DNA of 32,324 nt from Actinomycetota bacterium. Lineage in GTDB: Bacteria > Actinomycetota > Geothermincolia > Geothermincolales > RBG-13-55-18. The stretch is from the NCBI GenBank assembly GCA_013178005.1, contig JABLXL010000040.1:1-32324 (forward strand), read 5' to 3'. Below, in pieces: positions 3,547 through 24,007 of the stretch. The notes below the pieces were generated by a model that saw nothing but the letters and a program-made list of their open reading frames with translations, made no database searches and was not told the origin of the DNA. A program made the position numbers and the translations under genes. Position 1 is the first letter of the stretch. Each line of letters begins with the position of its first letter.

Positions 3547-3594
3547 TTGTTCCTATAAAGACTTGTTCCTATGAGAGTTTGTTCCTACAAAGAC
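3547..3594. repeat. Three tandem 16-bp direct repeats
   Basis: Units start at 3547, 3563 and 3579, each beginning TTGTTCCTA followed by a variable TAAAGAC / TGAGAGT / CAAAGAC. The exact 16-base period and conserved 5' half could mark an array of protein-binding sites, or simply slippage. The array lies about 170 bases upstream of the candidate protease promoter. Confidence 0.75.
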
Positions 3595-3723
3595 GGCGCT
3601 TATCTGCCCTGCGAAAGCGGGGAATGGAACAATAAGGAAACGACCTTGATCCAACCGTTCTGCAAAGGGGCAGATCGTATAAAGGTTGCTCTGGATGGGT
3701 CAAGTAAACGGCATAAACAGGGT

Positions 3724-4878
3724 TCAGCGGCGCCTCGCCTCCAGATATTCCCCCAGCCTCCGCACGCCTTCCGCCAGGTTCTCGAGGTTGTTGGCGTAGC
3801 TGAAGCGGATAAACCCCTCCGCGCCGCTGCCGAAGTCGATGCCGGGGGTCACGGCCACGTGCGCCTTCTCCAGCAGCTCCAGGGCGAAAGCGTAGGAGTC
3901 GTCGGCAAATGCACGCGCGTTGGCCAGGATGTAGAAGGCGCCGTGGGGCTCCACCGCCACCCCGAAGCCTATCTCCCGCAGCCTGGGCAGGAGGAAGCGG
4001 CGCCTCTCGTCGTAGGTGCGGACCATCGCCGCCACCTCCTCGCCCGCCTCGGTCAACGCGGCTATCCCGCCGCGCTGCACGAAGGAATTGGCGGAGATGA
4101 ACAGGTTCTGCTGCATCTTCTGGATGGGGCGGACGAACTCCTCGGGCGCGATGAGGTAGCCCAGCCTCCAGCCGGTCATGGCGTAGAGCTTGGAGAAGCC
4201 GTTGATGACGAAGGCACGGTCGGTGAACTCGAGGATGGAATGCTCTTTGCGCTCATAGACCAGCCCGTGGTATATCTCGTCGCTCACCACGTAGAGCCCC
4301 CTCTCCGCCAGGGCGGCTATCTCCTCCATCACCTCTGGCTCGAGCAGGTTCCCCGTGGGGTTGGAGGGGGAGTTGATGATCACCGCCCTGGTGCGGCTCC
4401 CAAGCCTCCTCTCGATGTCCCGGGGGCGGTACTGGAATCCCTCCTCCTCAAAGACCGGCACCTCCACTGGGACCCCGTCCACGAACTCCACTATGTTCGG
4501 ATAGCAGGCGTAGCATGGATTGGACAGGATGACCTCGTCTCCCGGGTCAAGGAGGGCGGCGAAGAGCAGCAGCATGGCGGGCGAGCTCCCGCTGGTCACG
4601 ATGACCCGCTCGGGGTCCACCTCCACGGCGTATTTATCGCGGTAATGGAGGGAGATGGCCTCCCGCAGTTCGTGCAGGCCCAGGCTGTGGGTGTAGTGGG
4701 TCTCTCCCTCCTGCATGGCCCGCCAGGCCGCCTCCTTCACGCAAAGCGGCGTGTCGAAGTCGGGCTCTCCGACCTCCATGTGGATGACGTCGTGGCCCTC
4801 CCTTCCCATCTGGATGGCCTTTTCCAGCACCTCCATGACTATGAAGGGCGGAATGCGTTCTCCACGCTCGGCCGGCAT
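3724..4878 (-). CDS. Class I/II pyridoxal-phosphate aminotransferase
   Basis: A 384-residue cytosolic aminotransferase of fold type I, in the aspartate/aromatic aminotransferase superfamily. It moves an amino group between an amino acid and a 2-oxoacid. Landmarks are the N-terminal VGEPDFDTP, the cofactor-contacting INSPSNPTGN, SDEIYHGL, and the Schiff-base lysine in NGFSKLYAMTGWRLGY; a conserved arginine lies near the end in FIRFSYAN. Length is normal for the family. I chose ATG 4878-4876 because GGAGGT lies 5 bases upstream; the GTG just before it (4881) would be too close to the ribosome site. Substrate specificity cannot be read from the sequence. It appears monocistronic. Confidence 0.92.
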   Translation of the reverse strand: MPAERGERIPPFIVMEVLEKAIQMGREGHDVIHMEVGEPDFDTPLCVKEAAWRAMQEGETHYTHSLGLHELREAISLHYRDKYAVEVDPERVIVTSGSSPAMLLLFAALLDPGDEVILSNPCYACYPNIVEFVDGVPVEVPVFEEEGFQYRPRDIERRLGSRTRAVIINSPSNPTGNLLEPEVMEEIAALAERGLYVVSDEIYHGLVYERKEHSILEFTDRAFVINGFSKLYAMTGWRLGYLIAPEEFVRPIQKMQQNLFISANSFVQRGGIAALTEAGEEVAAMVRTYDERRRFLLPRLREIGFGVAVEPHGAFYILANARAFADDSYAFALELLEKAHVAVTPGIDFGSGAEGFIRFSYANNLENLAEGVRRLGEYLEARRR

Positions 4879-5393
4879 CACCCACCTCCTCGTCGCTGCC
4901 TCGCATGCGGGACCGATTGCCGCTTGCCGGAGGGGCCGCGCGGGCGGTGCGCTGTCATGGAAGGCTTCGTACCGAAATCAAGGACCGTGGCGCGGAAAGC
5001 CCTGTCGCGCCCTAAGCCTTCATGTGACCCCGGCAGGAAGAGCACGAACCCCGCGCCTTGCGGGGAAAGTCTAGCGTCCTCTCCGCCGCCGGATCAGCGC
5101 CATGTCGCGCCCGCTTGCGCCTTGCCGCCCTGCGCGCCATGCCTCCGCGCGCCGCCCCGGGCGAGGGTGAAAATCATTATAAGGAAAAGAAAGGTGCTTG
5201 GCGAGAAACCACGGGCGCGGGCTCCATATCGTCCAGTCAGACGCATTAGGGATCACCCATGGCCTGCCCGCGCCTTGACCGCCTGCTCCTTGCCCCGCTG
5301 TTGCATGGCGAGGTGACCGTAGAAGCGGGAAGGGATATCATTAGCGCGTAGGAGAAGGAAAACGCGCCATACTCGGTTCCGGAAGGAGAGGCC
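4879..5393. other. Intergenic region between divergent aminotransferase and translin-family genes
   Basis: About 515 bases with no convincing gene. A perfect TATAAT lies on the minus strand at 5176-5181 inside a short AT-rich patch (5168-5200). It could be a -10 box for the aminotransferase, but no good -35 partner is at the right distance and the leader would be about 290 bases. A GGAAGGAG ribosome site precedes the plus-strand gene. I see no clear plus-strand promoter. Confidence 0.5.
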
Positions 5394-6038
5394 ATGGATT
5401 GGGAAGCGCTGCGCAGCCGCATCAAGGCCGACTTCGATGCCAAGAACGCCGCCAGGGAAGAGGTGCTCAAGGCCTGCCGGTCGCTGGTGCAGACATCAAG
5501 TTATATAATCCGCTCCGTGCACCGCGGCGAGCGGGACGAGGCCCTTGAGCTCATCGCCCAGGCGGAGGAACTCTCGGCCGGCATCACCCACATGACCCGC
5601 GACCACCCCGAGGTCTACACCGCCGGTTTCGTCCACGACGCCCAGAAGGAATACGCCGAGGCGCGCGCAACCTTCGCCCTCATCAACGGAGAGCCGCTTC
5701 CCGGGCCCGAGGAGTTGGGGGTGGAATATCCCGCCTACCTCAACGGGCTGGGTGAGGCGGTGGGGGAGCTGCGCCGATCCATCCTTGACCTCATCCGCGA
5801 AGGGCACCTGGAGAGGGGAGACGAGCTGCTGGCCTACATGGACGATATTTATTATCTCCTGGTCTCCTTCGATTACCCCGATGCCATCACCGGCGGCCTT
5901 CGGCGCACCACGGACATGGCCAGGGCGATCATGGAACGGACGCGCGGCGACCTCACCACCGCTCTCAGGCAGAGCAAGCTCAAGGAGGCCATCGCCCGGC
6001 TGGAAAGGAAAGTAAGCGGGGCGAACGAGGACATGTAA
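5394..6038 (+). CDS. Translin-family protein
   Basis: A 214-residue, almost wholly alpha-helical protein of the translin family. Eukaryotic translin and archaeal relatives form ring octamers that bind single-stranded nucleic acid, and some partners are RNases. The family signature is in the middle: NGEPLPGPEELGVEYPAYLNGLGEAVGELRR (residues about 98-128, quoted here in part as the diagnostic G-E-P-L-P...E-L-G-V...Y-L-N-G-L-G-E...G-E-L-R-R pattern), followed by YMDDIYYLLVSFDYPDAITGGLRRTTDMAR. The acidic residues used for catalysis in the translin partner TRAX cannot be assigned with confidence. The start ATG has GGAAGGAG about 7 bases upstream. It stands alone between oppositely oriented genes, so context gives no hint of its role. 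Confidence 0.85.
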   Translation: MDWEALRSRIKADFDAKNAAREEVLKACRSLVQTSSYIIRSVHRGERDEALELIAQAEELSAGITHMTRDHPEVYTAGFVHDAQKEYAEARATFALINGEPLPGPEELGVEYPAYLNGLGEAVGELRRSILDLIREGHLERGDELLAYMDDIYYLLVSFDYPDAITGGLRRTTDMARAIMERTRGDLTTALRQSKLKEAIARLERKVSGANEDM

Positions 6039-6278: not shown

Positions 6279-6956
6279 CTACCCGCCCAGCTTCCTCACG
6301 TAGATGGAGTTGGCGAGGTGCCACCCCACGGTGCGGCGGCTCCTGCCCACCTGGGCCTGCAGGGGTCCCTTGAAGGGGTCCTTGGCCTCCACCTTTATCT
6401 TCACCCCCGGCTTGATGCCCAGGGACGCCATGAACTGCAGCAACTCGGGCTCGTCGTCCTTCACGCTGATCACCTCGGCCTTCTCCCCGGGCTCCAGGGA
6501 ATATAGCGTGGTGTCCTCCACCCGCACGTCCTCCGGCTTGGAGGGGATGGGGTAACCGTGGGGGCATACCTTGGGGCGGTTGAGGGCCACGAAGAGGCGC
6601 CGCTCCACTTCCTCGGAGATGTTGTTCTCGAAAAGAAGGGCCTCCTCGTGGGCTTCGTGCCACTCGAAGCCGAGCATGTCGGTGAGGAACCTCTCCACGA
6701 TGCGGTGCCTGCGTATGGCCTTGACCGAGGCCTTCTGCCCCTCGGGGGTCAGGGTGATGCCGTGGTAGGGCACGTAGTTGATCAAGCCCTTCTCCGCCAG
6801 CCGCTTCAGGGTGTCGGTGACCGTGGAGGGCGCCACGTTCATGGCCTCGGCGAGGGCGGAGGTGGAGACGGGGCTGGACACGTTCTCCAGGCGGAAGATG
6901 TGCTTCAGGTATTCGCTGAAGGCGTCTTTTCCCTGCGCTCCCCTGCCGGTTTTCAT
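6279..6956 (-). CDS. DtxR/MntR-family metal-dependent transcriptional regulator with FeoA domain
   Basis: A 225-residue regulator. Residues about 10-70 form a winged helix (STSALAEAMNVAPSTVTDTLKRL recognition region), 75-125 the metal-binding and dimerisation domain, and 150-223 a FeoA/SH3-like domain. CPHGYPIP (131-138) is the usual linker motif. I chose ATG 6956-6954 because GGAGG lies 4 bases upstream and the conserved domain begins just after; the frame is open to 7124 but that extension is not protein-like. Aligned to DtxR by motif, site-1 ligands are kept (His84, Glu88, His103), but the site-2 Cys and His positions are Leu107 and Asn111, with Glu110 kept. Its response metal is therefore uncertain. 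A strong promoter overlapping palindromes lies just upstream, which suggests autoregulation. Confidence 0.9.
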   Translation of the reverse strand: MKTGRGAQGKDAFSEYLKHIFRLENVSSPVSTSALAEAMNVAPSTVTDTLKRLAEKGLINYVPYHGITLTPEGQKASVKAIRRHRIVERFLTDMLGFEWHEAHEEALLFENNISEEVERRLFVALNRPKVCPHGYPIPSKPEDVRVEDTTLYSLEPGEKAEVISVKDDEPELLQFMASLGIKPGVKIKVEAKDPFKGPLQAQVGRSRRTVGWHLANSIYVRKLGG

Positions 6957-6974
6957 CTGACCTCCAAGAAGCCC

Positions 6975-7003
6975 TTGATGTTTTGAATTTTCCAAATTAT
7001 AAT
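6975..7003 (+). promoter_or_regulatory. Candidate plus-strand promoter sharing the same -10 region (toward hppA)
   Basis: On the plus strand, TTGATG (6975-6980) is 17 bases from TATAAT (6998-7003). The -10 box overlaps the minus-strand -10 box because AAATTATAATTT is self-complementary. A transcript from here would reach hppA after a leader of about 180 bases. Confidence 0.5.
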
Positions 7004-7017
7004 TTCGGCGTTCCGAA
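6994..7017. promoter_or_regulatory. Palindromic candidate operator
   Basis: There are two adjacent inverted repeats: AAATTATAATTT (6994-7005), which is a perfect palindrome, and TTCGG-CGTT-CCGAA (7004-7017). They overlap the promoter of the DtxR-family gene and the opposing candidate promoter. The position fits an operator bound by the regulator itself, but the sequence is not a classic DtxR or MntR box. Confidence 0.45.
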
Positions 7018-7024
7018 TTTTCAA
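6996..7024 (-). promoter_or_regulatory. Promoter for DtxR-family gene
   Basis: On the minus strand, TTGAAA (7019-7024) is 17 bases from a perfect TATAAT (6996-7001), giving a predicted start near 6989 and a leader of about 33 bases. It overlaps both palindromes described at 6994-7017. Confidence 0.7.
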
Positions 7025-7192
7025 GCTGGCTCGGGTGAAAACGTGCCGGAGAACCCGGCAGCCGCCCCGGGTGGCGCCTTGGTGAGGGGATGGAATATCC
7101 GGCGGTTATGCGTTGCCGGGACACCGGCGACCGCCTTACACATATTCAGGCCGTATCGGAACATTATACGGACGCACGGGAAGGAGTGAGAT

Positions 7193-23931: not shown

Positions 23932-24007
23932 GCCGACGTAGCTCAGCAGGTAGAGCAGCTCACTCGTAATGAGCAGGTCAGGAGTTCGAGTCTCCTCGTC
24001 GGCTCCA
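23932..24007 (+). tRNA. tRNA-Thr (anticodon CGT)
   Basis: A full 76-base cloverleaf. The acceptor stem GCCGACG / CGTCGGC is perfect, the D-stem is GCTC / GAGC, the anticodon stem GCTCA / TGAGC, and the T-stem AGGAG / CTCCT with loop TTCGAGT. The anticodon CGT (23965-23967) reads ACG threonine codons. CCA is encoded. A T-run follows directly and may end transcription. Confidence 0.97.

Follow-up and report, generated by a model that had tools for sequence, protein, structure and literature searches.

A gene for a membrane ion-pumping pyrophosphatase (hppA, plus strand) and a gene for a DtxR-like regulator (dtxR, minus strand) diverge from an intergenic region of 236 bp in a draft genome of 3.61 Mb, whose nearest named match is Candidatus Solincola daggyaiensis (Geothermincolia, Actinomycetota). 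The locus raises the question whether both genes are read from one shared promoter element, and which signal the regulator would pass on to the pump gene. The window, i.e. the whole stretch of DNA that was analysed, comprises 32,324 nucleotides and represents one contig.

The hppA product contains a full-length pyrophosphatase domain (PF03030, H_PPase, residues 13-696, 1.1e-261) and exceeds the cut-off of NF001960 with 934 bits against 546. At gathering scores, a tRNA at 23932-24004 is the only RNA family in the whole window. The next gene beyond dtxR (5394-6038, plus) matches a PRK14562-type NCBIfam model, 'haloacid dehalogenase superfamily protein', with 265 bits, below the cut-off of 291, and gives a weak Pfam Translin match (0.0041); its product is possibly translin-like. 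A 581-aa frame at 3571-5316 (plus) gave no hit to Pfam or NCBIfam under the thresholds applied.

Anatomy and conservation of the intergenic element

The features of the locus are compiled in Table 1. The central 12-mer AAATTATAATTT is identical to its own reverse complement and carries TATAAT on both strands, as stated in the first-pass annotation. A whole-genome count yielded a single copy in 3.61 Mb. The -35-like boxes that had been proposed at a distance of 17 bases were recovered by a promoter scan: TTGATG-17-TATAAT on the plus strand matches at 10/12 positions and TTGAAA-17-TATAAT on the minus strand at 11/12. Between 6200 and 9700 these two are the only promoter-like sites by the scan criteria; shuffled sequences gave a mean of 0.5 (sd 0.6). 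The -10 is shared, the minus-strand hexamer (6996-7001) overlapping that of the plus strand (6998-7003), and the predicted starts at 6989 and 7010 would be 21 bp apart. A second palindrome, TTCGG-CGTT-CCGAA, was located beside the core, where it had been described. Its weaker mirror image to the left of the core had been missed, as had the extent of the dyad, which reaches about 52 bp and includes both -35 boxes. The observation as a whole is confirmed and is stronger than first stated.

Table 1. Coordinates of the shared promoter element and its two genes in the window.
Feature	Position	Strand	Basis and details
Near-palindromic bidirectional promoter/operator element, ~52 bp	6974..7025		Conservation, dyad
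Self-complementary core AAATTATAATTT, TATAAT on both strands	6994..7005		Sequence; single genomic copy
Plus-strand -35 box TTGATG	6975..6980	+	Promoter scan
Plus-strand -10 box TATAAT	6998..7003	+	Promoter scan; predicted start ~7010 (G)
Minus-strand -35 box TTGAAA (7024 to 7019)	7019..7024	-	Promoter scan
Minus-strand -10 box TATAAT (7001 to 6996)	6996..7001	-	Promoter scan; predicted start ~6989 (A on minus)
Right palindrome TTCGG-CGTT-CCGAA, proposed DtxR-type operator	7004..7017		Centre 7010.5; 5/5 pairs
Left palindrome TTTGA-ATTT-TCCAA, weaker, proposed second operator	6982..6995		Centre 6988.5; 4/5 pairs
dtxR-like gene	6279..6956	-	225 aa; DtxR HTH, metal-binding/dimerisation and FeoA domains
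dtxR ribosome-binding site GGAGGT	6960..6965	-	By eye
hppA ribosome-binding site AAGGAG	7181..7186	+	By eye; relatives similar
hppA, membrane ion-pumping pyrophosphatase, 702 aa	7193..9301	+	PF03030, NF001960

The comparison covered 15 distinct intergenic regions between a dtxR and an hppA gene in opposed orientation, each from a different genome. The exact 12-mer occurs in 13 of the 15; genome G015 carries AAATTACAATTT and G027 has neither. These two genomes, in which the regulator stands opposite hppA without the exact element, count against the reading favoured below. All 13 loci with the 12-mer share the -10 between the strands and have both promoters at 10/12 or better with 17-bp spacers. 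Their minus-strand -35 is invariably TTGAAA (13/13). On the plus strand, nine loci have TTGAAA as -35 box, the three genomes of the own genus TTGATG and G016 TTGATA. By the scan criteria, 11/13 intergenic regions contain no promoter-like site on the plus strand outside the element.

Among seven genus-level representatives, identity amounts to 0.92 and 0.91 in the left and right -35 arms and to 0.72 and 0.78 in the spacers, compared with 0.28-0.37 in the flanks; the value of 1.00 for the core has to be read with the selection of these rows on the core. In the majority sequence, the dyad symmetry spans about 52 bp. Outside the core, the dyad was compared with shuffled flanks in three of the 13 rows, yielding p values of 0.004 (window), 0.00015 (L005) and 0.0016 (L012). 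Genomes G005 and G011 have kept the element, though their hppA is only 67-68% identical to that of the window. Loci L005 and L022 combine such a divergent hppA (67-68%) with a longer leader of about 500 bp, the element itself being otherwise conserved; this looks like a replacement of the pump gene beside it. By alignment, the element is strongly conserved in related uncultured bacteria. These comparisons give good support to the earlier proposal of opposed promoters that use one -10, together with putative operators able to block both.

The regulator and its metal site

The dtxR product contains the DtxR helix-turn-helix (PF01325, 1.5e-16), metal-binding/dimerisation (PF02742, 3e-25) and FeoA (4.4e-20) domains. 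It misses the cut-offs of the NCBIfam MntR/DtxR equivalogs with 150.5 bits of 350 and 97.3 of 290. A canonical paralog linked to feoB misses the same cut-offs (123 of 350, 108.3 of 290), and the test is not discriminating.

In alignments with the structurally solved relatives 5zr4, 8pvt and 3hrs and with paralogs, the motif A-E/C-x-x-E-H reads A-Leu107-L-F-Glu110-Asn111. The Cys/Glu, Glu and His of the primary metal site thus correspond to Leu107, Glu110 and Asn111. Neither Cys nor Glu is found in the first column in any of the 15 class orthologs and 11 tandem sequences, i.e. in 26/26 hppA-linked sequences. The primary-site His is replaced by N, T, S or G in 12 family-f1 sequences (12/15 class orthologs); G015, G016, G027 and the tandem set still have it. 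His84, Glu88 and His103, which are taken here to form the ancillary site, as Glu110 is taken to belong to the primary one, are kept in the 15 class orthologs; the last position is Asp in 10/11 tandem sequences. As the ancillary positions are kept, metal could still be sensed.

The hppA-linked DtxR sequences form one side of a branch with a support of 99/98 in a tree of 17 rows, from which a partial row of G010 was left out. A draw of 149 genomes of the phylum gave 20 matches at E<=1e-45, a cut that limits the sample to close relatives. The signature RHRIVER was found in 17/20, all with hppA in the fetched locus, six divergent and eleven in tandem with dtxR first. The other three have the canonical EACKFEH and no hppA in the fetched locus. 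In one tandem locus (L193; G154:C89), dtxR and hppA are separated by a gene (410-1474, minus) whose product has a Na/Pi-cotransporter domain (PF02690, 1.4e-09), which may point to a link with phosphate.

The first-pass annotation had linked metal status to the expression of hppA, and as stated this is not borne out. A classic metal regulation, with the DtxR protein as a sensor of Fe or Mn that ties hppA to metal status, would agree with the DtxR-family domains including FeoA, the ancillary-site residues and the retained Glu110. It is opposed by Leu107 in place of Cys/Glu, a loss common to all 26 hppA-linked sequences examined, and by Asn111 in place of His. Moreover, the own genome encodes a second DtxR with the canonical ACKLEH directly upstream of feoB (FeoB by Pfam). 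The metal-status reading appears doubtful on these residues, and classic Fe or Mn control of hppA is considered unlikely.

Candidate operators, direction of transcription and a possible second target

The centres of the two palindromes are 22 bp apart. The classical DtxR site, TTAGG-N4-CCTAA, has the same 5-4-5 layout. The right palindrome is conserved as TTTCG-N5-CCGAA; the left one scores below it. Short palindrome patterns were not enriched genome-wide over reversed controls (6 vs 4 and 21 vs 19), and the evidence for operators therefore consists of conservation and position, not of motif frequency. A model built from the 13 hppA elements (R1) found the dtxR/hppA site alone in the own genome at E<=10, with 150 of 415 first-look candidates scored. 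No obvious copy of the element was seen by eye upstream of dtxR in three of the 11 tandem dtxR-hppA genomes.

Two genomes of genus g3, G004 and G008, possess hppA without dtxR in the fetched upstream DNA (1.5 kb or more). Whole-genome searches for a dtxR ortholog returned only a fragment of 40% identity in G004 and nothing in G008; a wider absence is unsure because the genomes are 78% and 62% complete. The right palindrome has 1/5 pairs in G008, where it is lost, and 3/5 in G004. The only partial change in G004 speaks against the favoured reading, as does the weakness of the left palindrome. A further point against it comes from Streptococcus mutans: in the part of PMC12096823 that was available, gel shifts showed no SloR binding to a palindrome predicted immediately downstream of the mntH -10.

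The palindromes might also serve another regulator, e.g. the feoB-linked DtxR paralog, with the neighbouring dtxR-like gene as a passenger. Half-sites before the V-ATPase genes of the own genus (TTAGCGCGGCCTAA) and a site in G016 (TTAGGTTAATCTAA) resemble by eye the TTAG..CTAA found before that paralog. The hppA site, however, reads TTCGG-N4-CCGAA, where the adjacent regulator is missing it has changed (G004) or disappeared (G008), and across families the regulator stays beside hppA in two arrangements. A passenger role of the dtxR-like gene is regarded as distinctly improbable.

The direction of the plus promoter is indicated by the same two genomes of genus g3. At the equivalent position, G004 has TTGAAT-17-TATGAT (4/6 + 5/6 = 9/12) and G008 TTGTGT-17-TATAAT (3/6 + 6/6 = 9/12). 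The minus-strand -35 is lost (1/6 in G004, 2/6 in G008), and a minus -10 of 5/6 remains. Since a weaker plus promoter persists without dtxR and with the minus -35 lost, the plus promoter very probably serves hppA. The plus-strand start predicted earlier near 7010 gains support from these promoters; its exact position is an estimate. The match of only 3/6 in the -35 of G008 and the weaker TTGATG of the own genus weigh against the favoured reading. In class-level hppA upstreams, TATAAT was seen by eye within about 100 bp of the gene in 6/7. That the minus (dtxR) promoter alone is real, the plus TATAAT being a by-product of -10 symmetry and hppA being transcribed from elsewhere, would suit the weaker TTGATG, an extra TTGAAA-17-CATAAT nearer hppA in G012 and G014, and the common occurrence of divergent by-product starts in bacteria (PMC10268837, in the part available), but has very little probability given that the left -35 is as conserved as the right, that no other promoter-like site before hppA is common to the 13 loci, that G004 and G008 retain the plus promoter without an adjacent dtxR, and that TATAAT stands close to hppA in most of the class-level upstreams.

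A second target may be the genes of a V-type ATPase. Model R1 was searched over 29 genomes, in most of which 150 first-look candidates were scored. Strong matches were the training sites, by construction, and a 31-bit site upstream of hppA in G004. At E<=1, the dtxR-bearing genomes of the family yielded six distinct non-hppA sites, five before V-ATPase genes and one (G002) elsewhere. The five are intergenic, between trkA-type genes and V-type ATPase genes (subunit I, and subunit K where seen); an ntpH-like frame, named by eye, is the first of the V-ATPase genes. When R1 was applied without filters to 17 V-ATPase loci, seven ortholog-bearing genomes (G005, G006, G009-G013) showed this site at E below 0.05 and G007 at 0.6; there was no match in the own genus (G000-G002). 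Further weak R1 matches occurred in G016, G017, G019, G021 and G026.

An operator-pair matrix, built from right arms only and applied to pairs 21-22 bp apart with p values from 300 shuffles, detected a pair before the V-ATPase genes at p<=0.003 in 8/13 ortholog-bearing genomes (G005, G006, G007, G009, G010, G011, G012, G013). In the own genus (G000, G001, G002) p was about 0.04; in the ortholog-bearing G015 and G016 the pair was not significant. Of the four genomes lacking the ortholog, three (G004, G008, G017) gave no significant pair; G003 reached p 0.013, which weighs against the favoured reading. A reciprocal model (R2) from five V-ATPase upstreams (G000, G001, G002, G007, G012), searched over 17 genomes, recovered the hppA elements of G007 (16.1 bits, E 0.034) and G005 (13.0 bits, E 0.32). 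It also matched a place before mrp genes in G006 (13.1 bits) and two places in G016, including G016:C28.

In the own genome, the V-ATPase upstream shows TTGAAA-17-TAAAAT, followed by TTAGCGCGGCCTAA and TTTTTCAGGCTCCGAAAAA. The TTAG..CTAA half-sites of the own genus could equally suit the feoB-linked paralog; like the missing R1 match and the p of about 0.04, this weighs against the favoured reading in the own genus. These data make control of the V-ATPase genes by the regulator likely in genera g4-g6 and no more than possible in the own genus, and the similar paired operators in eight relatives suggest a control of two ion pumps.

The own genome has TrkH- and TrkA-type potassium-uptake genes before the V-ATPase genes, and a conserved promoter/operator stretch lies between trkA and the latter (L174 4001-4072, G000:C24). 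In G016, a stretch between two TrkA-N genes (L169 about 1501-1540, G016:C48:14111-14150), with the TTAGGTTAATCTAA palindrome nearby, is located about 4 kb upstream of V-ATPase subunit I. The TrkH, TrkA, MrpE and Na/Pi-type identities were confirmed by Pfam. The Mrp antiporter was rejected as a target because the mrp upstreams of 12 genomes showed, by eye, a shared promoter only and no conserved paired operator.

Proposed mechanism and known systems

The whole explanation proposed here, a bidirectional promoter with a shared -10, two DtxR-type operators and a regulator that represses both genes in response to a signal other than Fe/Mn occupancy of the primary metal site, is considered probable. 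The element would act as a bidirectional promoter with a single self-complementary -10, on which RNA polymerase could load in either orientation, never in both together. The dtxR mRNA would run leftwards from about 6989 and the hppA mRNA rightwards from about 7010. DtxR-type palindromes flank the shared -10 at about 22 bp from each other, each placed between the core and one -35, and dimers of the DtxR-like protein most likely occupy both. To judge from this anatomy, the bound regulator would shut off its own gene and hppA together, combining autoregulation with control of hppA. Because its branch has lost the Cys/Glu ligand, the usual signal, occupancy of the primary site by Fe or Mn, is probably not what the regulator senses. 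The ancillary site, which has been kept, may be used instead, or the protein may respond to something connected with energy, phosphate or ion state. The V-type ATPase genes are probably a further target of it in related genera, and possibly in the genome studied here.

A broader proposal is tentative and somewhat less likely to hold than to fail: an Actinomycetota branch of DtxR proteins gave up the canonical metal site and became a dedicated regulator of the membrane pyrophosphatase. Energy, phosphate/pyrophosphate or ion state would be its non-canonical signal, and in Geothermincolia it would coordinate pyrophosphatase and V-type ATPase via a symmetrical bidirectional promoter/operator. If true, a metal-sensor family would have taken on a new role, and symmetry would appear selected, not incidental, in a bidirectional promoter that spans genera. 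As the cis-element is conserved and its regulator linked, a single 52-bp fragment and a single 225-aa protein would be enough to test the question. In the part of the literature covered, no DtxR, MntR or iron-dependent repressor was reported for a membrane pyrophosphatase or hppA.

Bidirectional promoters with a near-symmetrical -10 read both ways are known; in the sections available of PMC12825309 and PMC10268837, their divergent starts are 7-25 bp apart, most commonly 18 bp, and further elements set the level of each direction. The element described here has the same symmetrical -10, with a predicted start distance of 21 bp. It differs from the promoters of those sections in that most relatives have two strong -35 boxes, the symmetry extends over about 52 bp, and the whole is conserved across genera with paired candidate operators. 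In E. coli, acrR/acrA and soxR/soxS are pairs of regulator and target that diverge from a common -10, and the regulator acts on both genes (PMC12825309, in the part available). The divergence from one -10 is the same at dtxR/hppA, where the action of the regulator is a prediction. The regulators of those pairs, as described there, are of TetR and MerR types with efflux or stress targets, whereas a DtxR-type protein is paired here with an ion-pumping pyrophosphatase. With DtxR, MntR, SloR and ScaR it shares the HTH, metal-binding/dimerisation and C-terminal FeoA-type domains, and palindromic operators over promoter elements are found with SloR (available part of PMC12096823) as, in candidate form, at this locus. 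Unlike these proteins, it has the primary-site Cys/Glu replaced, in 12/15 class orthologs the His as well, and is linked to hppA instead of metal transport.
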